From the IMG/VR virus record IMGVR_UViG_3300037261_000025, positions 1 to 50,988 of that record: DNA of 50,988 nt; one strand, given 5' to 3'. This DNA comes from a virus. A program made the position numbers and the translations under genes. Below, in pieces: positions 1 through 12,091 of the stretch. Below the pieces are notes generated by a model. It searched no databases and was not told the origin of the DNA. It saw only the letters and a program-made list of their open reading frames with translations. The stretch's first letter is position 1. Every line of letters begins with the position of its first letter.

Positions 1-240
1 GCCGCGCACGTAGCTCAGGTTGCCGCTCACGTAGCTCAGGTCGCCGCTCACGCCGGTCAGGTCGCCGCTCACGCCGGTCAGGTTGCCGCTCACGTTGCTC
101 AGGTTGCCGCGCACGCCGGTCAGGTCGCCGCTCACGTAGCTCAGGTTGCCGCTCACGCCGGTCAGGTTTCCTGAAATTTTCTCGCCATTCACAAAATGCC
201 AAATTCCTTTTTGTTCAATTCTCGTAAGTGCTTTTTTCAT
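1..240 (-). CDS. Heptapeptide-repeat protein, N-terminal part (continues at the other end of the window)
   Basis: Starts at ATG 240 behind a good ribosome site (AGGAG, 5 nt spacer) and stays open to base 1. The first ~20 residues (MKKALTRIEQKGIWHFVNGE) are a unique cap. After that it is a 7-residue repeat of the form G-N/D-L-T/S-x-V-S/R, encoded by near-identical 21-bp units. The remainder is at 50717-50988; merging the last 8 bases of the window with the identical first 8 restores the frame. A strict 7-residue period with Leu and Val at fixed positions suggests a beta-solenoid (inference). Similar repeat proteins ending in a D-V/I-DDCE-type tail are known from phages, but I know of no function. 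The repeat number may be wrong because the assembly ends inside the repeat. Confidence 0.8.
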   Translation of the reverse strand, partial: MKKALTRIEQKGIWHFVNGEKISGNLTGVSGNLSYVSGDLTGVRGNLSNVSGNLTGVSGDLTGVSGDLSYVSGNLSYVRG

Positions 241-408
241 GTTTACTCCTGTTGATTTCGATGGGGTAACTTTAACCAGATTTTCGGCATGGTGACATAG
301 GTAAAAACCCTAGATAAGTAAAACTACGTATAAGGGTTTTTCCCGATGCAATTTACTTGCTTAGTCGTGCAAAATCCACATCAGAAATAACTAACTTTTG
401 GAGTCCAC
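241..408. promoter_or_regulatory. Divergent intergenic region with a perfect 9-bp inverted repeat
   Basis: This is the only region from which two operons diverge (minus from 240, plus from 409). It contains AAAAACCCT at 303-311 and its exact complement AGGGTTTTT at 333-341, 21 bases apart. The A/T-rich spacer includes GTATAAG, which resembles a -10 box. I find no well-spaced -35/-10 pair on either strand, so promoters are inferred from gene arrangement only. The dyad could be an operator or a bidirectional stem-loop, since it has A runs on one side and T runs on the other. The plus-strand gene has a ribosome site (TTTGGAG) just before 409. Confidence 0.5.
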
Positions 409-1155
409 ATGAAATATGAATTTGTACCAGGCGACGAAATCACCATCGCACCAGGACGTACCGTAAAACGTATCCGTGCGCTTGTTGCTATAGAAATTTT
501 TGGAGTTGTTCCAGGGCAACTCGGCGGATACATTGAATCAGAATCCAATTTGTCACAGTCGGGCTCTGCCTGGGTGAGCGACTTTGCCAGGGTGAGCTGC
601 TCTGCCTGTGTGAGCGACTCTGCCTGTGTGAGCGACTCTGCCTGTGTGAGCGGCTCTGCCTGGGTGATCGACTTTGCCAGGGTGAGCTGCTCTGCCAGGG
701 TGAGCGACTTTGCCTGTGTGAGCGGCTCTGCCTGGGTGAGCGGCTCTGCCAGGGTGAGCGGCTCTGCCAGGGTGAGCGACTTTGCCAGGGTGAGCGGCTC
801 TGCCAGGGTGAGCGACTTTGCCAGGGTGAGCGACTTTGCCTGTGTGAGCGACTTTGCCAGGGTGAGCGGCTCTGCCTGGATGAGCTGCTCTGCCTGGGTG
901 AGCGGCTCTGCCAGGGTGAGCGACTCTGCCTTGATCGTCTGGTTTAGCCATGTAGGTTCAGAAAATGGGACACTGACCGTCTACAACGCAAAAGACAAAA
1001 CTATCGAGGTAACTCGCGGATGCTTCGAAGGGACTATTGATGAGTTTCTTGAGGCATCGGAAAAGAAACACGACGATGCTACTCATCTTGAATATCGGCT
1101 GCTGATAGAAGTAGCGTATTCGCGTATTACTCGCGCTCGTGGTGATAAAAAATGA
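409..1155 (+). CDS. Hexapeptide-repeat (left-handed beta-helix type) protein with shared C-terminal domain
   Basis: 248 residues in three parts. Residues 1-~50 are a unique cap ending in GQLGGYIESESNLSQ. Residues ~51-180 are an array of 6-residue repeats of the type S-G/D-S/F-A-R/W/C-V, encoded by 18-bp units that are almost identical at DNA level. A ~65-residue C-terminal domain follows (GSENGTLTVYN...GCFEGTIDEFLEA...EYRLLIEVA). Hexapeptide arrays with Val/Ala at fixed positions normally form a triangular left-handed beta-helix (family knowledge). The C-terminal domain resembles that of the pentapeptide-repeat protein two genes on. Ribosome site GGAG lies 7 bases before the ATG. Its stop overlaps the next start (ATGA). 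Function is unknown; a scaffold or decoy role would be guesswork. Confidence 0.85.
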   Translation: MKYEFVPGDEITIAPGRTVKRIRALVAIEIFGVVPGQLGGYIESESNLSQSGSAWVSDFARVSCSACVSDSACVSDSACVSGSAWVIDFARVSCSARVSDFACVSGSAWVSGSARVSGSARVSDFARVSGSARVSDFARVSDFACVSDFARVSGSAWMSCSAWVSGSARVSDSALIVWFSHVGSENGTLTVYNAKDKTIEVTRGCFEGTIDEFLEASEKKHDDATHLEYRLLIEVAYSRITRARGDKK

Positions 1156-1325
1156 ACACATTCACACAACGCGAAAAAGAGACAGCAGAAATGCTTGTCG
1201 CTGTGGCGAAACCCGAAGTCGCCAAATACGCCGAGCCGCAAGACCGAGAGGCTGCACTTGCTGCGGTGCTTGAGCTAGCTCTTGATATTGTCGAACCATG
1301 GCGCGCAAAGGAGGAAGTGAAATGA
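1152..1325 (+). CDS. Small hypothetical protein (57 aa)
   Basis: A 57-residue ORF that fits exactly between its neighbours: its ATG overlaps the upstream stop (ATGA at 1152-1155) and its TGA overlaps the next start (ATGA at 1322-1325). Such double coupling is good evidence of a real gene despite the size. The protein starts MNTFTQREKETAEMLVAVA and is rich in Ala and Glu, predicted mainly helical, ending RAKEEVK. The ribosome site of the next gene (AAAGGAGG) lies within its last codons. No recognisable family. Confidence 0.7.
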   Translation: MNTFTQREKETAEMLVAVAKPEVAKYAEPQDREAALAAVLELALDIVEPWRAKEEVK

Positions 1326-1897
1326 ATCAGATCAAACACCGTTACACAGGCGAAGTCCTGTACGAATGCGAAGCGGGTTTAACGACTCGCCAGATGCTTG
1401 AGAAAGCAACTGCTGCTGGCGCGGACTTGCGTGGCGCGAACTTTTATGGCGCGAACTTGCGTGGCGCGAACTTGTATGGCGCGGACTTGCGTGGCGCGAA
1501 CTTGCGTGGCGCGGACTTGCGTGGCGCGAACTTTTATGGCGCGAACTTGCGTGGCGCGAACTTGTATGGCGCGGACTTGGGTGGCGCGGACTTGCGTGGC
1601 GCGAACTTGTATGGCGCGGACTTTTATGGCGCGAACTTGGGTGGCAAAGGAAAAGCAGTCGGCAGTCGGCCGTACTTCTCTATCGGTCCTATCGGCTCTC
1701 GCGCAGACACATTGGTTCTTTGGCTGACCGACAAAGGTCAGTACGTAAAAGCCGGGTGCTTTTTTGACACGCTGGAGAAGTTTGCAGAAGCTGTCGAAAA
1801 GACATATTGCGACAGTGACCACGGCAAAGAGTATCGAATGGCAATCCTGATGATGGAAGAGCACGCGGCTCTGTGGACACCGAAGGAGGAAGTATGA
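1322..1897 (+). CDS. Pentapeptide-repeat protein with shared C-terminal domain
   Basis: 191 residues. After a 30-residue start (MNQIKHRYTGEVLYECEAGL) come about 17 consecutive A-D/N-L/F-x-G pentapeptides (residues ~34-105), from 15-bp DNA units such as GGCGCGAACTTGCGT. This is the canonical pentapeptide pattern, which forms a right-handed quadrilateral beta-helix (family knowledge, as in MfpA/Qnr). Residues ~110-191 form a C-terminal domain (GSRADTLVLWL...GCFFDTLEKFAEAVEK...KEYRMAILMM) matching that of the hexapeptide-repeat protein upstream. I chose the ATG at 1322 because AAAGGAGG sits 8 bases before it; an in-frame ATG at 1298 lies inside the previous gene. MfpA/Qnr-type gyrase binding is possible but not shown. 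Confidence 0.88.
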   Translation: MNQIKHRYTGEVLYECEAGLTTRQMLEKATAAGADLRGANFYGANLRGANLYGADLRGANLRGADLRGANFYGANLRGANLYGADLGGADLRGANLYGADFYGANLGGKGKAVGSRPYFSIGPIGSRADTLVLWLTDKGQYVKAGCFFDTLEKFAEAVEKTYCDSDHGKEYRMAILMMEEHAALWTPKEEV

Positions 1898-2175
1898 AAG
1901 ATTCCTCCAACATAGACCTTCCTGAGTGGATGGACAACTGGCCAGATGGTACGGTTAAGAGTTTTGATAATGCTTTTCTTGCTTACTTTGACGGACAGCC
2001 TTCGGTATTCGCTCCGAAAAAAGGCGAACAGTGCCCGATATCTTGCGCGATAAACGCACGGGAAACGCTCCAACGCAAGCGCACTACTGGCGAATTCGTC
2101 GATATCTCACTTCCTGGATCGTCACAAGCTGCAAAAGACAAGCACGCCATGCTCAACGGCAAGGGGTTCGCATGA
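1894..2175 (+). CDS. Hypothetical protein (93 aa)
   Basis: 93 residues, start at ATG 1894 chosen for the ribosome site AAGGAGG just before it; the ATG overlaps the upstream stop. The N-terminal half carries a motif also seen in many small phage proteins (LPEWMDNWPDGTVKSFDNAF), followed by a basic segment with two Cys. The stop overlaps the start of the next gene (ATGA at 2172). No catalytic motif is visible and I do not recognise the family. Confidence 0.75.
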   Translation: MKDSSNIDLPEWMDNWPDGTVKSFDNAFLAYFDGQPSVFAPKKGEQCPISCAINARETLQRKRTTGEFVDISLPGSSQAAKDKHAMLNGKGFA

Positions 2176-2390
2176 GACGTGGGAAAGCACCTCTAGGCGA
2201 GGCAAGCAGCTTCGCAAAACTCAGCAACGAGCAAGTGATGGACATTCGAAGCAAGCAGCGCCAGCGGCTGGCTATGCTCAAGTACATCCGCGAAAATCTG
2301 TCGCTTGAAGCTGTGGCAAAGCAGTACGACGTCGCACAATCAACGATAACTTGCATCAATTCTTACAGGACATGGGGGCATATTGAATGA
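2172..2390 (+). CDS. Small helix-turn-helix protein
   Basis: 72 residues from ATG 2172, which overlaps the upstream TGA. The frame extends further upstream, but only this ATG fits the coupled operon. Residues ~22-68 (NEQVMDIRSKQRQRL... then LEAVAKQYDVAQSTITCINS) look like a resolvase/terminase-type helix-turn-helix: 'LEAVAKQYDV' as the first helix, 'AQSTITCI' as the recognition helix. A small basic DNA-binding protein, perhaps a regulator or nuclease adaptor. The stop overlaps the start of the helicase-methyltransferase gene. Confidence 0.72.
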   Translation: MRRGKAPLGEASSFAKLSNEQVMDIRSKQRQRLAMLKYIRENLSLEAVAKQYDVAQSTITCINSYRTWGHIE

Positions 2391-4585
2391 ATCAAGACTA
2401 CGATAAGTTTGTGAATGGCAAGCGCAGATCTGAATTGGCGACAGGGCATCAACCAGGTGATCTGAACGAACATCTGTTCGACTTCCAGCATGCCATTACA
2501 TCATGGGCAATTCGGCGTGGGCGCTCGGCAATATTTGCTGATACCGGCCTTGGAAAAACTCTGATGCAACTATCATGGTCCGATGAGGTTGTTTCGCATA
2601 CGAACGGCATCGTTTTGATTCTTGCTCCATTGGCTGTATCAGAACAAACAATCGAACAGGGAAACACATTCGGAATTGAAGTAAAACGCGTTCCTCACGG
2701 AGAATCTCCATCATCGCCAGGAATCTGGATCACAAACTACGAGCGTATGGATGCGATTGATTTTGCAGAACTATCAGGTATCGTTCTTGATGAAAGCTCT
2801 ATCCTGAAATCTCACGATGGAAAGACTAGAACAAAGATCATCACGTCATGCCAGCAGGTCCAATATCGGCTTAGTTGCACAGCGACTCCATCTCCTAATG
2901 ATTTCGAGGAACTTGGAAATCAGTGCGAGTTCTTGGGAGTGATGACTCGTACAGAGATGCTGGCTACGTATTTTGTCAATGATACTGGCGATACCGGTAC
3001 ATGGCGACTGAAAGGATGGGGACAGTCCAGATTCTGGGAATGGATGGGATCATGGGCTGTGGTGCTTCGTAGTCCTGCGGATATTGGATTCGATGGATCA
3101 CGCTACGAACTTCCTGCGCTCCAGTATTTTGAGCATGTTGTCGACGTGGCCGGTCAAAGCGGCGATCTATTCGCAAAGCCAGCACTCACCATGCTGGAAC
3201 GTCGAAAGGCCCAGCGCGATAGTATTAAACAACGATGCGAGGCATTGGCAGAGATTGTGAACAGTGAACCAAATGAACCATGGCTTATCTGGTGCCACCT
3301 GAATGACGAGGCCGAATTGATAGAGTCGCTTGTCGCAGGGTCTGTGAACATCCAAGGATCTGATTCTGTCGAGTTCAAGACAAAAAACATGATGGCATTC
3401 AGTCATGGCGACTTACGTATCCTAGCCAGTAAACCAAAAATATGCGGGTACGGTATGAATTGGCAACACTGCGCAAGAATGGCATTCGTCGGACTTGATG
3501 ACTCGTTCGAGAAGTTCTACCAGGCCGTTCGTCGGTGCTATCGGTTTGGACAAAAGCGCAGTGTTCACGTCCTCGTTTTCACCGCAGAAAACGAGGGGCA
3601 AATACTTGCAAACTTGAAACGAAAAGAACTGCAACACCATGAAATGAGCGCAAATATGATTGAACACATGAAAGACATTATGAACAACGAACTGGCCGGA
3701 CAAACAAACGTGGTGGATGCATACAGAGAGGATACCCATACATCGAATAATTTCACAGTCCATCTTGGAGACTGCGTGAAATGGACTCGGCGCATGGAAT
3801 CGAACAGCATAGACTATTCCGTGTTTTCTCCACCTTTCGCCGACTTGTTCGTTTATTCAAACAGCGATCATGACATGGGAAACTGCAAAGACGATGCTGA
3901 GTTTGTCGCGCAACTTCGATTCTTGATCTCTGAGCTTTTCCGAGTCATCAAGCCAGGACGTAACGTCTCCTTCCATTGCATGAATCTTCCAACGACAAAG
4001 ATGCGCCAAGGGTTTATTGGATTGCGTGATTTCCGTGGAGACTTGATTCGTGCATTCCAAGATGCAGGATTTATCTATCACTCCGAAGTTGCTATCTGGA
4101 AAGACCCCGTAGTCGCAATGCAACGTACAAAGGCACTTGGTCTGCTGCATAAGACCATCCGCGAAAACAGCACCATGAGCCGTATGGGATTGCCTGATTA
4201 TGTTGTCACGATGCGCAAGCCTGGGGATTGCGAAGTTCGCGTTACTCATGGAGAAGATTTCCCGGTGGCATTGTGGCAAAAATATGCAAGCCCTATCTGG
4301 ACTGACATTAACCAGGGACGAACGCTCAACAAACTTCCTGCCAGGAACGAGAATGACGAGAAGCATATGTGCCCACTGCAGTTAGATGTTATCGAACGGT
4401 GCATCCATCTTTGGACAAACCCCGGTGATGTAATTTTCTCGCCTTTCACTGGCATCGGTAGCGAGGGATATTGTGCTGTGAAGATGGGGCGAAAGTTCGT
4501 TGGAACTGAACTAAAGCCGCAATATTGGGAGTTGGCATGCCAGAACATTGCTGACGCTGAGAATGAGCAAATTGGTCTTTTTTAA
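2387..4585 (+). CDS. SNF2-like helicase fused to a beta-class DNA methyltransferase
   Basis: 732 residues with two enzyme domains. Residues ~30-440 are an SF2/SNF2-type ATPase: Walker A ADTGLGKT (51-58), Walker B LDESS (134-138), motif III CTATPSPND (164-172), and motif VI YQAVRRCYRFGQ (378-389) with the arginine finger. Residues ~455-730 are an amino-methyltransferase: SPPF (481-484) is catalytic motif IV of N4-cytosine/N6-adenine enzymes, and DVIFSPFTGIGSEG (681-694) is the SAM-binding motif I. The order IV then I defines the beta class. I infer a translocating modification enzyme protecting phage DNA; no restriction nuclease is adjacent, so it is not an evident R-M system. It is coupled to the HTH gene upstream (ATGA). 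Confidence 0.9.
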   Translation: MNQDYDKFVNGKRRSELATGHQPGDLNEHLFDFQHAITSWAIRRGRSAIFADTGLGKTLMQLSWSDEVVSHTNGIVLILAPLAVSEQTIEQGNTFGIEVKRVPHGESPSSPGIWITNYERMDAIDFAELSGIVLDESSILKSHDGKTRTKIITSCQQVQYRLSCTATPSPNDFEELGNQCEFLGVMTRTEMLATYFVNDTGDTGTWRLKGWGQSRFWEWMGSWAVVLRSPADIGFDGSRYELPALQYFEHVVDVAGQSGDLFAKPALTMLERRKAQRDSIKQRCEALAEIVNSEPNEPWLIWCHLNDEAELIESLVAGSVNIQGSDSVEFKTKNMMAFSHGDLRILASKPKICGYGMNWQHCARMAFVGLDDSFEKFYQAVRRCYRFGQKRSVHVLVFTAENEGQILANLKRKELQHHEMSANMIEHMKDIMNNELAGQTNVVDAYREDTHTSNNFTVHLGDCVKWTRRMESNSIDYSVFSPPFADLFVYSNSDHDMGNCKDDAEFVAQLRFLISELFRVIKPGRNVSFHCMNLPTTKMRQGFIGLRDFRGDLIRAFQDAGFIYHSEVAIWKDPVVAMQRTKALGLLHKTIRENSTMSRMGLPDYVVTMRKPGDCEVRVTHGEDFPVALWQKYASPIWTDINQGRTLNKLPARNENDEKHMCPLQLDVIERCIHLWTNPGDVIFSPFTGIGSEGYCAVKMGRKFVGTELKPQYWELACQNIADAENEQIGLF

Positions 4586-4771
4586 GGATACGGACTCAAA
4601 TAACTGGAGTCCGAATGAAAACCCAACTAGACCGCCTTGGAACGCTGTTGACATTTTTGAAACACGCCGGATAATCCACGTTCTGAACCCGGCTATCCAC
4701 GGATTGATCCCCATGGAGAAAAGAGAACCCTGCTCCTGCCGTCAGTTCTTTCAAGGGATCACAGGATAAAA
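4586..4771 (+). promoter_or_regulatory. Intergenic region with a hairpin over a possible ribosome site
   Basis: A 186-base gap in an otherwise overlapping operon. CGGACTC (4591-4597) and GAGTCCG (4607-4613) form a perfect 7-bp stem with a 9-base loop. The 3' arm contains GGAG, which would serve as the ribosome site of a 19-codon ORF, ATG 4615 to TAA 4674 (MKTQLDRLGTLLTFLKHAG). The stem would hide that site. No T run follows, so it is not a standard terminator. The microORF could be a leader peptide or chance. No other gene is supported here, although one frame stays open across most of the gap. Confidence 0.35.
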
Positions 4772-5581
4772 ATGAACCTAACTCAACACCCTCTTAGCGG
4801 CGCATTCCCGTCAATGAACGATGCGGATTTTCTGGCGCTGAAAGACGACATAGAAAACAACGGGCAACGCGAGCCAGTCATTGTTTTAGACGGAATGGTG
4901 CTCGATGGATGGCACCGGTTTCAGGCGTGCACACAACTCGGAATGGCTGTGAAAAAGTTCACGTTCGATCCGAGCGACGATCCTGTTGCGTTCGTTCTGA
5001 GCCAGAACATGCACCGGCGCCACTTGACCGCTTCGCAGCGTGCCGCCGCCGTTGTCGCATGCTCAAATTGGTCGCCTCCACATCGTCAAAAGAAGTCCGC
5101 ACCTGGTGCGGACTTATCAAAAACAACGAAGGAACTTGCCATTATTGCGGGCACTGGGACTCGAACTATCGAGCATGCGAAAGCGGCTGAAAAGGCCGGT
5201 CTCGGAGATTTGGTGAAAGAAGGCGTAATGACCGCAAAAGAGGGAGCAAAAGTTGCATCTGGGAAGATAGATGAAAAGCCCTCAAAAGTTCTGCCAAAAC
5301 CGGAAGTCGCTTTCATAGAACACGATCAGGATAAGGTGCAGATTCTCAGCGAAGAGAATGACCGCCTGAACGACCGATTGGCTGTAGTGGCGATGGATGC
5401 CACACCAGAAGAGCGCAGCGCGGCCAAGGACACGATCGCAAGCCTTCGCGCAGAACTCAAGACCATGGGTATTGAACTGGCTGCAGTCAAGGCGTCTCGA
5501 GATAGCTTGATGATGGAGACAAACGAACTTAAAAAGCAATGTGCAAGCCAACGAAAACAGATCGAAAAGTTGACGAAATAA
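4772..5581 (+). CDS. ParB/Srx-fold DNA-binding or nuclease protein
   Basis: 269 residues. Residues ~1-85 form a ParB N-terminal-like domain: MNDADFLALKDDIENNGQ..PVIV, then GMVLDGWHR (the G-x-DG-x-HR signature) and FVLSQNMHRRHLT. Residues ~85-170 are helical, with a probable HTH (TKELAIIAGTGTRTIEHA) as in ParB/Spo0J or phage ParB-like nucleases. Residues ~190-269 are charged and likely a coiled coil. Roles in partitioning, transcription or nicking are all known for this family. The location between two helicase genes suits replication, but the exact role is not shown. Ribosome site: AGGA before ATG 4772. Confidence 0.82.
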   Translation: MNLTQHPLSGAFPSMNDADFLALKDDIENNGQREPVIVLDGMVLDGWHRFQACTQLGMAVKKFTFDPSDDPVAFVLSQNMHRRHLTASQRAAAVVACSNWSPPHRQKKSAPGADLSKTTKELAIIAGTGTRTIEHAKAAEKAGLGDLVKEGVMTAKEGAKVASGKIDEKPSKVLPKPEVAFIEHDQDKVQILSEENDRLNDRLAVVAMDATPEERSAAKDTIASLRAELKTMGIELAAVKASRDSLMMETNELKKQCASQRKQIEKLTK

Positions 5582-5588
5582 TGCTCAC

Positions 5589-5615
5589 GCCGACGAGCCA
5601 GTGTCGGTATTTTTT
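5589..5615 (+). terminator. Weak stem-loop with T run before the helicase gene
   Basis: CCGAC (5590-5594) pairs with GTCGG (5603-5607) around an 8-base loop and is followed by a run of six T (5610-5615). The stem is only 5-6 bp, so at most it is an attenuator. The ribosome site of the helicase gene (GGGGA, 5616-5620) follows directly. Confidence 0.3.
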
Positions 5616-5624
5616 GGGGATTTT

Positions 5625-8600
5625 ATGAGTGAAGTTGTCCTATTTGAAGATCAAAAAGAGGTGCTAGATAAAGTGCGTTCCGCGTTTATTGAGGGCCATA
5701 GGTCTGTGATGTTGTACGCGCCAACTGGCGCCGGAAAGTGCTTAGGACGCGATACACCTGTGATGATGGCAGACGGAACCATCAAGCCGGTGCAGGACAT
5801 CATAGCTGGTGAGTTTTTGATGGGCGACGATGGCGATCCGCGCTGTGTTATGAGCACAGCAACGGGAAGAGAAATGCTCTACCGCGTGACGCCACGAAAG
5901 GGTGATTCCTATGTGGTGAATGCGAGCCATCTTCTAAGTCTGCGTGTGACTCCAGGTAGCAACGGGATCCTTCTTGCTGATGGTATGCACATTAAGCGTG
6001 GTGAAGATGTTGTCTCTGTTCGTGCAGACGTATTCGCAAGAAGCAATAGAACCGCGAAGCATTGCCTAAAGGGCTGGAGATCGGATGCTATCCAAGCGTT
6101 CATGCGCGAGGATGATGGCGAGGACCGATTGATGCCGTCATATATTCTTGGTGCATGGCTTGGAGACGGAACCTTGGGCCACGCATCGATTACGAAGCCG
6201 CGCAGCAGGATGGTTGATGAGTGGGTTGCCTATGGTAGATCGATTGGTTACGGCGTCAGTATTGACGAGTGCGATGGTCGATGCCCCACATGGTTGTTGA
6301 CGAATGGATCTGACGGGTACGCATTCAACATCGCTCAATCGTCTCTTGGCGTCATCGGGGTCTTGCAGCGCAAGCACATACCTGACGCCTATAAGTATGG
6401 CCCGCTCTCTGATCGTCTGCAACTGCTGGCAGGTCTGATTGACAGCGATGGATCAGAATCGAATGGCGGATGCGACTGGATCAGTAAGAGCGAGGAGCTT
6501 GCCCGCGACTTCGCATTCGTCTGCCGTTCAGTGGGGCTGGCGTGCTACTTGACCTATGAGAAGAAGGGAATAAAGAGTACCGGATTTGTAGGTTGGTACT
6601 GGCGGGCGAGCGTGAGCGGAGACCTATCGATCATCCCGACGCGCGACAAGATATTCCCCGAACGTCGACAGATCAAGCGGCATCTTGTCCACGGGATCAC
6701 CGTCGAGCCAATGGGAGAGGGTGACTACTTCGGTTTCGAGATCGATGGTAATCGGCTGTTCTTGCTGGGTGACTTCACGGTAACGCACAACACCGAGATG
6801 GCAATTTCCATGCTCAAAGCAACGTCGGACAAGTACAAGCGCGGGGCAATGATGCTTGACCGCATTGTTCTTTGCAATCAGACAAGCGCGCGCCTGCAGA
6901 AGTACAACATCGATCACGGCGTCATGCAGTCAGGCCATTGGCGAAATCGACCCTATGAGCGCATCCAAGTGTGTAGTGCGCAGACTCTCGAAAAGCGCGG
7001 ATCGTTCCCAGGGCTTGACCTTTTGATTGTTGATGAGTGTTTTCCTGGTGAAACGTTAATTGACACAATTGACGGCGCGCGTCGAATAGACACACTAAAC
7101 GATGGCGGTCTCATATACAATGCAATAGGTACTGGAACAGTTCGTTCAATTTTCTCGAAAACGGTGTTTCAGACATTGCTTGTAAGGATGTCAAATGGCG
7201 ACTCATTTGAATGCACAGAGGATCATCCCGTGTTCACTGACTTGGGATGGCAACCCGCTGGCGCCATGGCGCGGGGTACGAAGCTATTTCGCGGTGAAAA
7301 CTTGCGAAGTCTGTGGAGAGGAGATTCGACCGCTTGTCATAAACTCGAAAACGGAGGGAGTGATACCGGAAGCGGAAACATTATTCAATGCGCGGAAATG
7401 TTGCGGGAAATCTTGCGCCAAGAAATTGAGCAACCCGATGCACAAGCCGGAATTGCGTATGAAAATGAAGGATACGCTTCTCCGAATTGGGCACAAGCCA
7501 TTGGTGCGCGGAGGCAATGGGAAGGGCATGACGGAGACCGAGACGCTTATGTTGAGCAAGTTGCCGGTGGGGTGGGGTCCAGGCCACATTTTCAAGACGT
7601 TGAGAAGTGCGGCTCAGGGGTATCCGCATCACTACAAATTGGATCTTGCGTTTCCTATCCAAAGGCTTTGTCTGGAGTTGGATGGCGGGAGTCATCGCTC
7701 GATTGCTCGGCAAGCGCAGGACGCGAAGAAGGATGCGCTGCTAAGAGAGTTTGGGTGGAAAGTGTGCAGACTCAAGAACACCCAAGCGGTAGAACTGTTT
7801 TCAACTTGCGAGTCAGTGGACACCCTTCGTATTTTGCAAATGGCTACCTAGTCCATAACTGCCACACCCAGCGACAGCAGACAACGGAGTTCATTCGGTC
7901 GAACGAAAGCATCAAAGTCATCGGCCTATCGGCTTCACCATTCGCCGACGGACTTGGAAAGACCTATACCAAGGTCGTATCGGCAACAACCACTGCAAAG
8001 TTGGTAGACCAAAAGCGACTCGTTCCTCTGCGCGTGTTTATCGCCAAGGAAATCGACATGGCTGGAGCGAAGAAAGTCGCTGGAGAATGGTCACAGGGCG
8101 AAGCGGCAGAGCGGGGCATGAAAATAACCGGCGATGTGGTGGCTGAGTGGGTGAAGAAAACGACCGAGATTTTCGGTGGACCTCGAAAGACGATTGTGTT
8201 TTGCTCGAATGTCGCCCACGGCGCTGATCTGGCGAATAAGTTCTCGGATGCCGGGTACAACTTCGTCGCGATCAGCTACAAGGATTCTGACGAGTTCAAG
8301 GTTGATGCCGTCGCTGATTTCTCAAAGCCTGATACGGCCATTCATGGTCTGATTGCATGCGACATCTTGACCAAGGGATTTGATGTGCCTGATGTCATGA
8401 TCGGAGTCAGCGCGCGTCCGTTCACCAAGTCATTCATGAGCCACGTCCAGCAAATGGGCCGGGTGATGCGCAGCTACCCAGAAAAGGAGTTCGCAATATG
8501 GCTTGACCACTCGGGGAACTATCTCCGGTTTCAAGAGGACTGGGACGAGCTATACCACGAAGGAGTCCATGAACTTTCTGACGGAAAAGAAAAGGCAAAG

Positions 8601-8975
8601 AAAGAAAAATCCGACAAAGAAAAGGAAGCGGCAAAGTGCCCTCGATGTCATGCGCTATGGGTCGGAAAGTCCGACAACTGCGTTGCATGCGGGTATGCCA
8701 GGCCGTTCACCAGCTTGATCGAAGCCGTACCGGGTGAGATGGAAGAACTCAAGGGTGCTCCGACGAAGGATGTGAAGCAGTCATGGTATTCGCAGCTTCG
8801 CACGCTTGCGGAGAACAGAGGATATTCGAATGGCTGGGTCGCGCACAAGTACCGTACCCGTTTTGGGGTGTGGCCCAAGGGCTTGCAGGAGGTTGCGCTG
8901 CCAGTTAGCATCGAGGTCGCACGATGGGAAACAAGCCAAAGAATTGCATGGGCTAAAGGTAAGAAATCAGTATGA
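5625..8975 (+). CDS. DEAD/DECH-box DNA helicase precursor interrupted by two inteins
   Basis: 1116 residues as translated. Removing two inteins (351 and 274 residues) leaves a helicase of about 491 residues. Mature motifs: Walker A PTGAGKT, formed only after intein 1 is removed; DECH box VDECH, formed only after intein 2 is removed; LSASPFADG (motif III region); QQMGRVMRS (motif VI); and a C-terminal zinc ribbon CPRC...CVAC. Start: ATG 5625 has GGGGA 4 bases upstream and is preferred over the in-frame GTG at 5601. Both inteins sit in catalytic motifs, so the protein should be inactive until spliced. A GIY-YIG nuclease and primase follow with overlapping starts, so it is a replication helicase by context. 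Confidence 0.93.
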   Translation: MSEVVLFEDQKEVLDKVRSAFIEGHRSVMLYAPTGAGKCLGRDTPVMMADGTIKPVQDIIAGEFLMGDDGDPRCVMSTATGREMLYRVTPRKGDSYVVNASHLLSLRVTPGSNGILLADGMHIKRGEDVVSVRADVFARSNRTAKHCLKGWRSDAIQAFMREDDGEDRLMPSYILGAWLGDGTLGHASITKPRSRMVDEWVAYGRSIGYGVSIDECDGRCPTWLLTNGSDGYAFNIAQSSLGVIGVLQRKHIPDAYKYGPLSDRLQLLAGLIDSDGSESNGGCDWISKSEELARDFAFVCRSVGLACYLTYEKKGIKSTGFVGWYWRASVSGDLSIIPTRDKIFPERRQIKRHLVHGITVEPMGEGDYFGFEIDGNRLFLLGDFTVTHNTEMAISMLKATSDKYKRGAMMLDRIVLCNQTSARLQKYNIDHGVMQSGHWRNRPYERIQVCSAQTLEKRGSFPGLDLLIVDECFPGETLIDTIDGARRIDTLNDGGLIYNAIGTGTVRSIFSKTVFQTLLVRMSNGDSFECTEDHPVFTDLGWQPAGAMARGTKLFRGENLRSLWRGDSTACHKLENGGSDTGSGNIIQCAEMLREILRQEIEQPDAQAGIAYENEGYASPNWAQAIGARRQWEGHDGDRDAYVEQVAGGVGSRPHFQDVEKCGSGVSASLQIGSCVSYPKALSGVGWRESSLDCSASAGREEGCAAKRVWVESVQTQEHPSGRTVFNLRVSGHPSYFANGYLVHNCHTQRQQTTEFIRSNESIKVIGLSASPFADGLGKTYTKVVSATTTAKLVDQKRLVPLRVFIAKEIDMAGAKKVAGEWSQGEAAERGMKITGDVVAEWVKKTTEIFGGPRKTIVFCSNVAHGADLANKFSDAGYNFVAISYKDSDEFKVDAVADFSKPDTAIHGLIACDILTKGFDVPDVMIGVSARPFTKSFMSHVQQMGRVMRSYPEKEFAIWLDHSGNYLRFQEDWDELYHEGVHELSDGKEKAKKEKSDKEKEAAKCPRCHALWVGKSDNCVACGYARPFTSLIEAVPGEMEELKGAPTKDVKQSWYSQLRTLAENRGYSNGWVAHKYRTRFGVWPKGLQEVALPVSIEVARWETSQRIAWAKGKKSV
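5739..6791 (+). mobile_element. Intein 1 with LAGLIDADG homing endonuclease (in Walker A)
   Basis: 351 codons in frame. It starts at Cys (TGC 5739) after APTGAGK and ends VTHN (AAC 6789-6791), followed by Thr as the +1 residue. Block A: CLGRDTPVMMADGTIKPV. Block B-like: VNASHLLSL. The endonuclease core has two dodecapeptides, YILGAWLGDGTLG and LLAGLIDSDGSES. The C-terminal splicing blocks are YFGFEIDGNRLFLLGDFTVTHN. All residues for canonical splicing are present: Cys1, terminal Asn preceded by His, and Thr+1. Insertion in the P-loop of an ATPase is a typical intein site. Confidence 0.95.
7038..7859 (+). mobile_element. Intein 2 (in the DECH box), with an out-of-frame nuclease gene inside
   Basis: 274 codons in the helicase frame. 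It starts at Cys (TGT 7038) after LLIVDE and ends GYLVHN (AAC 7857-7859); the next residue is Cys, the start of CHTQ. N-terminal splicing blocks: CFPGETLIDTIDGARRI and FECTEDHPVF. C-terminal block: TVFNLRVSGHPSYFANGYLVHN split over 7797-7859. In its own frame the ~160 residues between the blocks have no endonuclease motif and read like a by-product frame. The other plus frame (7195-7851) encodes a nuclease. So the middle of this intein is a linker whose sequence is set by another gene. Confidence 0.93.
7195..7851 (+). CDS. Vsr/DUF559-like homing endonuclease nested out of frame inside intein 2
   Basis: 218 residues, frame +1 relative to the helicase, wholly inside the intein. Start ATG 7195 has its own ribosome site AAGGA with a 6-base spacer, supporting independent translation. 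Residues ~36-82 carry paired Cys (KTCEVCGEEI and KCCGKSC), a likely zinc-binding DNA-recognition element. Residues ~150-205 hold a PD-(D/E)XK core: YKLDLAFP, then CLELDGGSHRS, then DALLREFGWKVCRLKN. This pattern matches Vsr-like/DUF559 nucleases found as free-standing homing enzymes. Its stop (TAG 7849-7851) lies 8 bases before the end of the intein. The first ~30 residues overlap the N-terminal splicing block and may be less constrained. Confidence 0.85.
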   Translation: MATHLNAQRIIPCSLTWDGNPLAPWRGVRSYFAVKTCEVCGEEIRPLVINSKTEGVIPEAETLFNARKCCGKSCAKKLSNPMHKPELRMKMKDTLLRIGHKPLVRGGNGKGMTETETLMLSKLPVGWGPGHIFKTLRSAAQGYPHHYKLDLAFPIQRLCLELDGGSHRSIARQAQDAKKDALLREFGWKVCRLKNTQAVELFSTCESVDTLRILQMAT

Positions 8976-9685
8976 GTAACACCAATTGTCGATGCGGTAT
9001 TTATTCAATTGCTACGCCGAATGGCAGTACGTACATTGGCAGCAGCAACAAAATCGAGCGCCGATGGCACGAGCACCGGAGCCTGTTGCGCCACGGCAAG
9101 CACCATTCCACGAGGTTGCAGGCAGCTTGGGATAAGCATGGTGCGGCGCTTGTGTTTTCTGTATTGATGGAATGCCCGCTGGCTGAATTGAACGAGCGGG
9201 AGCATGAGTTTATTGATCGGCTTGGCGCTAAATTGAATACGTCCACATTCGTAGAAAACGTTTGGCTTAACGAAAGTACACGGGCGAAGTTCTCGGCTAT
9301 CCACCAATCCCCCGAATGGAAGGAATCCCGTAGACGCATTGCGACCGAATCTTCAACGCGCTGGGTAGCAGTCGAGTGCAGCAATGGGACTCAGTACAAG
9401 AACATGACGGATGCGGCACGCGCTTTTGGGGTTCGCGCTGCTGGCATCGCTCATCTTGTCAGGTCGCAGCGAGTTGGAAGGCTTGGCGTCCGCTTCAAAC
9501 TACAAACAGAGTGTTGGCGCGATGTGCCGACATGGCAGGATCAGCGCGTCATTACTATGCGCCAAAACGGCAACGACAAACGCACCGATCAATCTCGCGC
9601 GCGCATGAGCGCAGCGAAGAAGGGGCGCGCCGTCAGCCCCCAATGCCTTGCGGCCGCGACTGCTGCGAATCGGAAGACTGCATGA
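8972..9685 (+). CDS. GIY-YIG homing endonuclease
   Basis: 237 residues. N-terminal GIY-YIG domain (~1-90): GIYSI (9-13), TYIGSS (20-25), RRWHEHRSLL with the catalytic Arg, and EFIDRLGAKLN with the metal-binding Glu. The C-terminal region (~120-190) has a NUMOD-type DNA-binding stretch (SNGTQYKNMTDAARAFGV). The extreme C-terminus (DKRTDQSRARMSAAKKGR) resembles the basic repeat of segE-type mobile nucleases. ATG overlaps the helicase stop, and its stop overlaps the primase start, so it is coupled into the operon rather than sitting in an intron. Likely target: a gene next door in related phages (inference). Confidence 0.88.
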   Translation: MSNTNCRCGIYSIATPNGSTYIGSSNKIERRWHEHRSLLRHGKHHSTRLQAAWDKHGAALVFSVLMECPLAELNEREHEFIDRLGAKLNTSTFVENVWLNESTRAKFSAIHQSPEWKESRRRIATESSTRWVAVECSNGTQYKNMTDAARAFGVRAAGIAHLVRSQRVGRLGVRFKLQTECWRDVPTWQDQRVITMRQNGNDKRTDQSRARMSAAKKGRAVSPQCLAAATAANRKTA

Positions 9686-10551
9686 GCGACTTCATTGCAT
9701 TCGCCCGGTCCCACGGTGTTCTGATTGACAGGATTCAGGACGATGGAAAGTGGCACAGGGTGCCAACGGAAACTCACCCGAAGAAGAAAAACGGCGCATA
9801 TCGTCACTGCGGCACGCATGCGCACGTACAGGATCATTCGACCATGGTCGATCCAGTTCTATGGACGCCAACGGCTGAACAGGTTGCCAACATAGACCAC
9901 GAAGGAATCGCACGCCGGGCAATCGAAGCGGCGCATGAAATCCGCGTCGGCCAGGAAGGCGCTTCGAAACGTGCATCTTGGATCATGCACCAATGCGTAA
10001 TCGATGTTCATCCATACCTCGAAAGCAAGGGGTTTCCAGAAGAGCGAGGATACGTCTGGAACGATGAAAAATCAGCGAATAAAAAGCTCGTGATACCCAT
10101 GCGGATCAATGGGCAAATAGTTGGAGCACAGACCATCAGCGACAGAGAAGGATTTGAAAAAAGGTTTTTGTTCGGGCAGAGAACGAGCGAGGCAACATAC
10201 ATCATCGATAACAAGGGTCCGAAGTGGTTTTGCGAGGGCTATGCAACTGGCTTGTCCGTTCGCGCCGCCTTGCAGGCCATCAAGACCCGGTACACGTTGA
10301 TCGTCTGTTTCTCGGCTGGAAATTTGCTCAAGGTAGCACGCAACCACGGCGAAGGATTCATCGTCGCAGATCATGACAACGCGAGCCCGTTAGCGCCTCT
10401 TGAAGGCGGAATTGGCGTGAAGGTGGCCACTGATAGCGGGTTGCCGTTTTGGAGTGCTGGCGAGGCCGGTATTGACTTCAACGACTACCATCGAAAGCAT
10501 GGGCTATTCAAGGCGTCACAGGCGCTCAATGGGTTGATGATGCGACGATAG
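9682..10551 (+). CDS. TOPRIM-domain DNA primase
   Basis: 289 residues from ATG 9682, overlapping the upstream TGA; the frame extends further back only as a shadow of the GIY-YIG gene. Residues ~1-60 form a short N-terminal region with H and C residues (YRHCGTHAHVQ) resembling the zinc-type DUF927/P4 primase start. Residues ~105-165: AYLESKGF-like segment and LVIPMRINGQIVGAQTIS. Residues ~185-280 are the TOPRIM fold: FCEGYATGLSV (catalytic Glu), then GEGFIVADHDN (the DxD). Family: phage P4 alpha-like Toprim primases. It would prime replication along with the helicase upstream. Confidence 0.88.
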   Translation: MSDFIAFARSHGVLIDRIQDDGKWHRVPTETHPKKKNGAYRHCGTHAHVQDHSTMVDPVLWTPTAEQVANIDHEGIARRAIEAAHEIRVGQEGASKRASWIMHQCVIDVHPYLESKGFPEERGYVWNDEKSANKKLVIPMRINGQIVGAQTISDREGFEKRFLFGQRTSEATYIIDNKGPKWFCEGYATGLSVRAALQAIKTRYTLIVCFSAGNLLKVARNHGEGFIVADHDNASPLAPLEGGIGVKVATDSGLPFWSAGEAGIDFNDYHRKHGLFKASQALNGLMMRR

Positions 10552-10786
10552 ATTACCACTTTTATTGCACTTGAGTGGTGGGACATAGTTTAACCGCAGC
10601 ACTCAAGGAAGATCCCCTACTGTGAGGACAGACAAGGAAGAAGGGGTAAGGGTGGCGAAGGCAGCGCCCGATTGTCGAACGGCTACCGGGTCATGTAACG
10701 GCGAGAGGCATACATGTGAAGGACTTGGACCCAAGGATGGGCTAGGTCCGTCCAGCTCAAGGCATTTAGAAGTTAAGGGGAAGTTA
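10552..10786 (+). other. 235-base noncoding stretch with several inverted repeats
   Basis: Downstream of the primase the plus strand has no supported gene until 10787. CTTGAGTG (10570-10577) and CACTCAAG (10600-10607) form a perfect 8-bp dyad with a 22-base loop. Further on, GGACC-type and GGTCC-type segments around 10727-10752 could pair. An open frame from GTG 10622 covers part of it, but it lacks a ribosome site and codon character. A structured RNA or a remnant is possible; I cannot assign a class. Confidence 0.35.
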
Positions 10787-11065
10787 ATGCAGTCTGGTGG
10801 AGATTGGGAAGAATTCGAGATTCAGAGATTTCTTCGGAGAAACGATAGATTTTTGAATGAGGGTTTACCCGAATTGCAGTCAGAAGCACTTGCGCAGACA
10901 ATGCTTTATCGTGACCGAGATGGCTCTGGCGATGACCGGCGAATTTGCATTGAGTGCAAGCATATCAAAGGATCATTGTGCAGGCATCCGAAATTAAAAA
11001 TTGTGAGCCCAGTGAGATTTATTCTGAAGCGGTGCGACGGATTTGAATTGATAGGCCAAAAATGA
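10787..11065 (+). CDS. Small Cys-containing phage protein (92 aa)
   Basis: ATG 10787 chosen because AAGGGG lies 6 bases before it; the frame upstream of it is noncoding in character. 92 residues: a charged helical start (MQSGGDWEEFEIQRFLRRND), then ICIECKHIKGSLCRHPKLK, a likely zinc-binding knuckle (C-x2-C-x-H-x5-C), and a hydrophobic end. The C-x-EC-x-H pattern recurs in small phage proteins next to replication genes. Function unknown. Confidence 0.72.
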   Translation: MQSGGDWEEFEIQRFLRRNDRFLNEGLPELQSEALAQTMLYRDRDGSGDDRRICIECKHIKGSLCRHPKLKIVSPVRFILKRCDGFELIGQK

Positions 11066-11068
11066 AAA

Positions 11069-11227
11069 ATGGAATCAGTGAAAAAAGCGCACATCGCGCA
11101 CCTGATCCGGCTGCGTCAGGCGGACCCGGAATATGCCCGATACGCGCTCGCACAGACGCTGGCGATGGACATATGGCCGGACCTGGAAGAGTGCGTGCTG
11201 AGGGCTTGGAATGATCGAGAGAAGTAA
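11069..11227 (+). CDS. Small hypothetical protein (52 aa)
   Basis: 52 residues: MESVKKAHIAHLIRLRQADP at the start, ending WNDREK. Amphipathic, helical, normal codon use; a slightly longer ORF in another frame from ATG 11062 reads as Gly/Ala/Pro-rich junk and is rejected. The ribosome site is weak. The stop TAA lies in TAACGC, the left box of the structured element that follows. Confidence 0.55.
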   Translation: MESVKKAHIAHLIRLRQADPEYARYALAQTLAMDIWPDLEECVLRAWNDREK

Positions 11228-11293
11228 CGCCAAAAATCAGGGGGACTCCGGCGGCTTTATCGCCGGAGGCTCCCCTGGATTGCCGGGTTAGCC
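11225..11293 (+). repeat. attC-like structured element C
   Basis: TAAC (11225-11228, containing the upstream stop codon), a 7-base spacer, a left arm 11236-11253, the loop GCTTTAT, a right arm 11261-11280, a 6-base spacer and GTTAGCC (11287-11293). The inner stem CTCCGGCG/CGCCGGAG is perfect and is extended by GGGGA/TCCCC. The right arm is two bases longer than the left, so extra bases are unpaired. Box-spacer-stem-spacer-box order is that of integron attC sites. The right box is close to GTTRRRY; the left box is degenerate. Confidence 0.45.
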
Positions 11294-11316
11294 CCGGCGC
11301 AACTACGGAGACGAAC

Positions 11317-11787
11317 ATGGAGCGATTGAAATACCCAATGAGCCATGAATGGCACGTTGCGATCAACCGGCACCACGACGGAAAGATGGGAACGCCCGAT
11401 TGGAAGCGCTGGATGTACGAAGCGAAAGCGATGGCCGACGAAGTGCCGCGCATGGCACTGGTGCTCGGCAGGGAGCGGCGCGGAGAACTCGCCAAGACGC
11501 ATAAGCAATGCTCGATGAATCCGGCGGTGCCGGTGCCAAGCAACCACCTGACGTGCTGCCTCGGCGTGAAGTGCGCGGAGTGCCCGGAACTGCTGGCGAT
11601 CGACAAGATTGAGCGGGTAACGCCCGAAGACATTGACACGGCGAAGGCATGGACGTGCGCGGCGCACATTGTTTCCAAGGGCGGCGACACGATGAACGAA
11701 GGCTACCTGCTCGACGTGAGCGACCGGATGTACTGGGACAACGTGTGCGAGAGCCTGAGCCAAGGTGATGAAGGGGCTAACGCTTGA
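11317..11787 (+). CDS. Hypothetical protein (156 aa) with a Cys cluster
   Basis: 156 residues, ATG 11317 behind ACGGAGACGAAC. Residues ~1-50 are charged and helical (HEWHVAINRHHDGKMGTPDW). Residues ~79-90 carry CCLGVKCAEC, and another Cys follows in KAWTCAAHIV, suggesting metal binding. The C-terminus is acidic and aromatic (DVSDRMYWDNVCESL). It lies between two attC-like elements, in the position of a cassette gene. No recognised family. Confidence 0.7.
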   Translation: MERLKYPMSHEWHVAINRHHDGKMGTPDWKRWMYEAKAMADEVPRMALVLGRERRGELAKTHKQCSMNPAVPVPSNHLTCCLGVKCAECPELLAIDKIERVTPEDIDTAKAWTCAAHIVSKGGDTMNEGYLLDVSDRMYWDNVCESLSQGDEGANA

Positions 11788-11862
11788 ATTCAGCGACCGC
11801 GCTGAAAAATAAACTACAGCGTGCCACGCTTCGGCGCGGTTCGCTGGAATGACGGGTTAGCC
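11775..11862 (+). repeat. attC-like structured element D
   Basis: GGCTAAC (11775-11781), spacer GCTTGA, left arm 11788-11802, variable loop, right arm 11834-11850, spacer of 5, GTTAGCC (11856-11862). The outer boxes are exact complements. The arms pair throughout except for two extra bases (T and G) in the right arm, as expected for the extrahelical bases of an integron attC. It overlaps the last codons of the upstream gene, also typical of cassettes. Boxes match RYYYAAC and GTTRRRY at 6 of 7 positions each. Confidence 0.55.
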
Positions 11863-11902
11863 GCTGCCCGCGAAACAGCGCGCAACACTTGGAGAACGTG
11901 AA

Positions 11903-12091
11903 ATGAACTACTGTGAAGCCCTCGGCAAAATACGTGAAGCGCGAGCATTATTGCAAGACGAAGCTGCAACCCCGGCAAACACGCGGGAACTGGCTATGGC
12001 AATAACAAAGCTCGACGAAGCGATCCTCTGGCGGCAAAGCGACATGCAGAAAAAAGCGCCGGTCGTGGATGGCTGCTCCATAGGCGGCTAA
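11903..12091 (+). CDS. Acb2/Tad1-like helical-hairpin protein (candidate anti-CBASS)
   Basis: 62 residues, ATG 11903 after TTGGAGAACGTGAA. The core NTRELAMAITKLDEAILWRQ matches the pattern R-E-x-(S/A)-L-A-x-T-K-L-E-E-A-x-M-W common to DUF7681/Acb2-type phage hairpin proteins. Acb2 binds cyclic nucleotides and blocks CBASS/Thoeris-type defence. Here the N-terminal helix (CEALGKIREARALLQDEA) and the core would form the hairpin. Many such hairpins have no tested function, so anti-defence activity is inference. It lies between two structured elements. Confidence 0.5.
   Translation: MNYCEALGKIREARALLQDEAATPANTRELAMAITKLDEAILWRQSDMQKKAPVVDGCSIGG

Follow-up and report, generated by a model that had tools for sequence, protein, structure and literature searches.

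An intein in a phage helicase gene that probably carries an overprinted endonuclease gene in its +1 frame

Inteins without an in-frame nuclease are usually taken as having lost their mobility. I-Bth0305I is a nuclease of a group I intron. Fractured-gene split inteins with Vsr-like endonucleases, the gp41-1 type, were reportedly described by Dassa et al. in 2009. In the available text of Arsenault, Gosselin and Gogarten (2025; PMC11855218), an out-of-frame HNH endonuclease is hidden in an insertion of a phage methylase that has no splicing domains, and this ShiLan insertion has, by the authors' account, no detectable ribosome-binding site. Here we analyse a helicase gene with two inteins in a 50,988-base window, the whole of IMG/VR virus record IMGVR_UViG_3300037261_000025, which also holds tailed-phage genes (terminase large subunit, head closure, head-tail adaptor, RecE-like exonuclease and primase). 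The second intein is, with a probability of about 0.8, an overprinted intein, in which a HINT domain occupies frame 0 and a separate endonuclease, composed of a cysteine-rich region and a Vsr/I-Bth0305I-type domain, occupies the +1 frame. The nucleotide sequence shows that each frame is open, conserved and under constraint, and that the same organisation recurs.

The two inteins and the nested nuclease

The features of the locus are as follows, with a slash marking the point of insertion.

5625–8975, plus strand: precursor of a superfamily 2 (SF2) DExH helicase with two inteins inside (Helicase_C, 8.7e-7; ResIII, 2.6e-5; phrog_16, 4.9e-54)
5739–6791, plus strand: intein 1, in Walker A (GAGK/T); 351 residues, in-frame LAGLIDADG (Hom_end_hint, 6.7e-18)
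7038–7859, plus strand: intein 2, in Walker B (VDE/CH); 274 residues, HINT halves at residues 1–90 and 238–274
7183–7197, plus strand: Shine-Dalgarno-like TAAGGA and ATG start of the nuclease, inside intein codons
7195–7851, plus strand, +1 frame of intein 2: putative overprinted endonuclease gene; 218 residues (DUF559, 8.4e-8)
7739–7851, plus strand: dual-coding C-terminal stretch; frame 0 gives splicing blocks F/G of the intein, and frame +1 the last part of the nuclease

The helicase frame is open from a GTG at 5601 or an ATG at 5625 to position 8975 (plus strand). Intein 1 runs from C1 to a terminal HN followed by a +1 Thr, and two LAGLIDADG motifs are visible in frame within its HINT domain, as in LAGLIDADG inteins (the LAGLIDADG_3 match, at 0.003, lies under the curated cut-off). 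Intein 2 has the residues expected of an intein, namely C1, T60xxH63 in block B, H273, N274 and a +1 Cys. A model of its frame based on 42 sequences shows a confident HINT fold at residues 1–90 and 238–274, with a low-confidence linker at about 133–234 (predicted local distance difference test, pLDDT, about 33). Its nearest solved relatives are the gp41-1 inteins (6qaz, E 2.5e-23; Foldseek E 2.4e-7, template modelling score to target 0.87). Excision of both inteins yields a protein of 491 residues from ATG 5625 with the motifs PTGAGKT and VDECH. It is sensible to suppose that the helicase would require both splicing events, because both inteins break ATPase motifs.

The junctions can be judged from relatives that have one intein without the other. 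Phage ctsTn925 (L007) carries a 65.1% identical copy of intein 1 in the matching position of Walker A and has an uninterrupted Walker B (VDEAH), while contig L008 has intein 2 and an uninterrupted Walker A (GGGKT). Aligned to these two, the spliced protein of the window shows no gap at the junctions (304/480 and 291/453 identities), so that each intein is absent from a homologue that is contiguous across its site, and both junctions are therefore real. An initial annotation of the window had placed the inteins at GAGK/T and DE/CH, described them as different in kind with an in-frame LAGLIDADG in the first only, and held that their removal restores PTGAGKT and VDECH in a 491-residue protein; its anatomy is exact to the residue, and the alignment it proposed, of the spliced protein with intein-free helicases, gives contiguous flanks at both junctions when made to relatives free of one intein or the other. 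Restoration is exact in the literal sense, but DECH is not simply the ancestral box, since ctsTn925, which lacks intein 2, has DEAH. The Cys of DECH is the +1 residue that the intein needs; the element has therefore probably altered the motif it entered.

The same annotation found no nuclease in frame in intein 2, which is literally correct, but the intein is not nuclease-free, as a nuclease lies in its +1 frame at 7195–7851. This open reading frame (ORF) spans the linker as well as the C-terminal splicing blocks, and its stop, a TAG formed by the Leu-Val codons of the intein's LVHN, lies 8 nt short of the intein end. The predicted protein has a cysteine-rich, zinc-finger-like region followed by a DUF559/Vsr-like catalytic domain, and its model (pLDDT 82) aligns with 3hrl (Z 8.6), I-Bth0305I (3r3p; Z 8.3, root-mean-square deviation 2.5 over 78) and Vsr (1cw0; Z 7.3). 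A DUF559 domain was recognised in 39/39 members of the nuclease family scanned. D150, H167 and D176 are invariant and E161, D163 and K179 nearly so, which, together with the Vsr-like fold, is the pattern of Vsr/EDxHD nucleases.

Recurrence of the arrangement and constraint on both frames

A tblastn search with the nested protein matched 40 phage records, in which the feature under the match was always a single named coding sequence, mostly called helicase, P-loop NTPase or hypothetical protein. Six of the 40 were inspected (Pseudomonas MR14, Vibrio 159E43-1b, Corynebacterium phi673, Vibrio 104E43.1, CP-T1 and 1.088.O), and the nuclease had no coding sequence of its own in any of them. With the window included, it lies at +1 within an intein at the same DE/C...HN/C site in 7/7 loci. 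Scans of IMG/VR gave 327 and 384 relatives, from each of which 80 were taken, and a scan of bacterial genomes gave 23. Classification of the resulting 190 loci with hidden Markov models, some of them the same contig in two scans, assigned 164 as contiguous with the nuclease at +1, and none with it in frame or at +2. The remainder comprised eight fractured loci, five with the C-half only (each starting at or near the edge of the available DNA), 12 in which no HINT was found, and one (L007) without the nuclease. L101–L110 are distant chromosomal DUF559 proteins in which no HINT was found. Counting the window there are 165 contiguous loci, 123 at <90% nuclease identity. No relatives were found among the plasmids scanned, no near match to window positions 1–12000 in the phage DNA searched, and a single-protein scan of IMG/VR gave 12 pattern matches and no relatives. 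In the loci sampled, an out-of-frame nuclease is the usual state of the intein 2 class, which is large, conserved and apparently unannotated.

For residue-level comparison 80 non-redundant loci were delineated from a 96-locus set without L011 and L098, which contig ends cut; L073 and L089 were set aside as non-contiguous. The insertion falls directly after the Walker B DE in 79/80 loci and three residues later in L091. C1, the terminal HN and a +1 Cys or Ser are each present in 80/80. Ten hosts were scanned; among them are SF2 and SNF2 helicases, a fusion of SNF2 with a methylase, DnaX clamp loaders and a Terminase_6N protein. The nuclease stop lies exactly 8 nt before the intein end in 59/122 loci and is TAG in 98/122, formed in 51 by the Leu-Val codons of LVHN. 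Distances of the N-terminal HINT half correlate weakly with those of the nuclease (rho 0.22; 0/300 permutations as high), and those of the C-extein at 0.47; given the weak HINT correlation, strict co-inheritance of HINT and nuclease is not claimed.

Neither frame contains a stop in these 80 loci. Under synonymous codon shuffling, 830.7 stops are expected in the intein frame when the nuclease protein is kept, and 391.8 in the nuclease frame when the intein protein is kept, compared with none observed in either; the expectations for the window alone are 10.45 and 3.48. The nuclease start was set at the first ATG, GTG or TTG of the open frame, so that the overlap was counted at its maximum. In loci that can do without the intein frame stops are frequent, with 15–35 per nuclease across five fractured loci and 19 for the free-standing L089 copy. 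Across 23 independent pairs, linker differences are concentrated at the third nuclease codon position (0.402, against 0.224 and 0.211 at the others), and one-base changes in the linker are silent in the nuclease only in 501 cases and in the intein only in 150. In the overlap with blocks F/G the two counts are equal (69 and 69). At the amino-acid level the linker is more alike when read as nuclease (identity 0.699) than when read as intein (0.524). Because of the contrast between 501 against 150 in the linker and 69 against 69 in F/G, the pattern of substitution indicates that constraint acts on the nuclease in the linker and on both proteins in the shared end.

Three other accounts were discarded. 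Intein 2 is not a plain mini-intein with filler, as the filler is a second reading of a conserved nuclease. Chance as the source of the nuclease ORF is ruled out by recurrence, the codon shuffles and the substitution pattern, and a group I intron is ruled out as Rfam has no match in 5000–10000.

Related sites and nucleases were seen nearby and in relatives. The window also encodes an SNF2-helicase/methylase fusion (2387–4585) with an uninterrupted Walker B (LDESSILKSHDG). L066 and L095, whose hosts are similar to it, have an overprinted intein exactly at Walker B (VDE/CSLLAS and LDE/SSILKS), and for this reason the window seems also to contain, in the fusion gene, an unoccupied site for a sister element. 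L089 has a free-standing copy of the nuclease family at 3797–4399, immediately preceding a helicase gene that has no intein and reads VDESHHS. Between the helicase and primase genes of the window lies a GIY-YIG endonuclease gene (8972–9685; Pfam GIY-YIG, 1.4e-8; phrog_314, 3.1e-17) with an ATGA overlap at each end. In ctsTn925 the primase gene overlaps the helicase directly, and the GIY-YIG gene is therefore a third mobile nuclease at the helicase locus of the window.

Expression of the element and rival readings

From this organisation we infer splicing, internal initiation, cleavage and homing of the intein 2 element. The whole precursor would be translated and intein 2 would excise itself, joining the halves of Walker B; the frame-0 product would consist of the two HINT halves and a linker of about 100 residues predicted to be disordered. 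Ribosomes initiating inside the messenger RNA at the Shine-Dalgarno sequence and ATG would make the nuclease as a free protein. This nuclease may then cleave the intein-free coding sequence of Walker B, and repair would copy in the whole element, the +1 Cys codon included. In 65/80 loci the nuclease start has a properly spaced Shine-Dalgarno match of ≥4 nt ahead of it, compared with 31% of matched control starts; for matches of ≥5 nt the shares are 50% of loci and 10% of controls.

Some observations weigh against the overprinted reading or parts of it. The conserved intein codons (Glu-Val, GAGGT) can themselves write a Shine-Dalgarno signal and may account for part of it, so that the enrichment supports internal initiation without proving it; 15/80 loci, among them the close relative L008, have no match at all. 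Block B TxxH is intact in 74/80 loci and degenerate in 6/80, though a His remains. The window nuclease lacks a stretch of about 23 residues (SSxTMAxTNRKYAS) found in six phage copies. The fold matches to Vsr and I-Bth0305I are good and not decisive (best Foldseek E 4e-3), and mitoribosomal chains with the same kind of fold score Z 8.7–9.4, as high as the nuclease matches in the same list.

Programmed ribosomal frameshifting out of the intein frame, which would fuse the N-terminal HINT half to the nuclease, could draw on the offset being +1 in every HINT-bearing DUF559-type locus, as a fixed direction of slip would need. We regard it as improbable, as starts with Shine-Dalgarno matches are enriched, HNH inteins of like design use +2 (see below), and the nuclease stays a gene of its own in fractured relatives. 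In the window a +1-frame stop lies 12 nt ahead of the ATG and leaves almost no space for a slip site, in an analysis that made no systematic search for slippery sites. That the +1 ORF is a decayed passenger, left from an intein that once had a separate nuclease and is now selected in the intein frame alone, would agree with the window copy being shorter than those of phages. It is nevertheless a decidedly improbable account, disfavoured at the level of the family by changes that are mostly silent in the nuclease frame (501 versus 150), by the higher linker identity in that frame (0.699 versus 0.524), by its being open in 80/80 loci against 391.8 stops expected, and by catalytic residues that are invariant or nearly so.

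The published HNH insertion without splicing domains in a phage methylase (PMC11855218, in its available text) offers a precedent for a further account, as proposed for ShiLan, in which intein 2 is never spliced and the helicase keeps an extra loop. The HINT end residues in 80/80 loci and a confident HINT model nearest to gp41-1 make this very hard to credit, and a retained insertion should kill the ATPase because the site splits Walker B. An overprinted intein with a separately initiated nuclease thus remains our preferred reading.

Fractured and HNH relatives and comparison with known systems

The intein frame of the window is open throughout 7038–7859, and a fractured arrangement was found only in L073 and L112–L118. 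Five of these are non-redundant (L073, L113, L114, L116 and L117), all in helicase-like genes. Their N-half comprises 88–89 intein residues, ending at or just past the nuclease start; it is followed by a separate nuclease gene and then by a C-intein of 48–57 residues with its own ATG, after which the extein resumes with CGAFPKP. All three parts keep the frame relation of the contiguous form. A 130-row tree groups the fractured loci in a single clade (100/99) placed among contiguous rows, and three changes of the arrangement label suffice in all, compared with a shuffled mean of 6.9. Descent of the split forms from overprinted ones is therefore likely, a grade that reflects an unsettled bootstrap and a midpoint root; it fits with gp41-1 as the nearest solved intein. 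The fractured loci are themselves candidate new split inteins.

Sampling by the N-terminal HINT half instead of the nuclease gave 80 loci, some overlapping the earlier sets: 41 overprinted DUF559 inteins, one odd locus, 34 contiguous inteins without DUF559 and four unassigned. Another out-of-frame nuclease is present in 14 of these 34, seven of each of the following kinds.

L230, L231, L237, L259, L261, L262 and L263: +1 HNH inteins, with a multi-zinc-finger HNH (L230 and L231 are identical)
L233, L235, L252, L253, L255, L256 and L258: +2 HNH_3 inteins

Pfam recognised HNH in 5/5 scanned loci of the first kind (one just under the cut-off) and HNH_3 in 5/5 of the second; L230, L231, L253 and L258, outside the scanned loci, were called HNH by eye. 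An I-D-D motif (IDDP-like, as in terminases) lies no more than a few residues beyond the end of every +1 HNH intein except L259. No intein-frame stops were observed in six +1 HNH loci, against 65.5 expected, or in seven +2 HNH_3 loci, against 18.0, the latter being weak evidence at single loci (P up to 0.51). In the long nested ORFs of L249 and L265 no nuclease likeness was seen, and these two loci were excluded from the counts. In L220 an N-terminal intein half is followed by stops, and a long zinc-finger-repeat ORF lies in another frame. L241, L242 and L244 are contiguous 382-residue inteins with a long middle part, in which no LAGLIDADG motif was seen by eye and no plus-strand nested ORF of at least 120 residues was found.

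Out-of-frame HNH insertions in phages are already published, and overprinted inteins are not claimed here as unpublished. We found no literature on DUF559 nucleases overprinted in inteins, in a search that left most subscription journals and bioRxiv outside its reach. The +1 HNH protein has a match in a Gordonia phage terminase, and further work on non-canonical actinobacteriophage inteins by the group of PMC11855218 may therefore cover the HNH form.

With 165 loci holding a conserved nuclease in another frame, the lost-mobility reading would be wrong for this whole class. The overlap of splicing blocks and nuclease exemplifies long dual coding on one strand in nature, with a known fold for both proteins. 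The arrangement also suggests a definite path by which naturally split inteins, in wide use as tools and of unclear origin, could have come about. The odds seem to us evenly balanced on a broader proposal. Overprinted inteins would constitute a third general architecture beside nuclease-fused and mini- or split inteins, with at least three nuclease lineages (DUF559/Vsr at +1, HNH at +1 and HNH_3 at +2) lodged in HINT domains in a shifted frame. When the nuclease gene had become able to exist independently, stops arising in the intein frame would have turned overprinted inteins into fractured split inteins of the gp41-1 type.

Among known systems, classical LAGLIDADG inteins such as intein 1 also have a homing nuclease in the linker between the HINT halves, but there it is in frame and fused to the intein, whereas that of intein 2 is out of frame. 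I-Bth0305I (3r3p) and Vsr (1cw0, 1vsr) share the fold of the catalytic domain over nuclease residues of about 110–208; compared with I-Bth0305I, the window nuclease has an N-terminal cysteine-rich region and sits inside an intein. The ShiLan domain of actinobacteriophage DNA methylases, as far as the available text of PMC11855218 describes it, is likewise a mobile endonuclease in a shifted frame within an insertion that is open in the host frame. It differs in having an HNH nuclease and no splicing domains, whereas intein 2 has a complete HINT intein and a DUF559/Vsr-type nuclease that overlaps the splicing blocks. The fractured gp41-1 type shares with the window the HINT subfamily, a Vsr/EDxHD-like nuclease between the splicing halves and a location in phage DNA-metabolism genes; in contrast, intein 2 of the window and the inteins of the 164 other contiguous loci are unsplit, and their intein frame reads through the nuclease gene.

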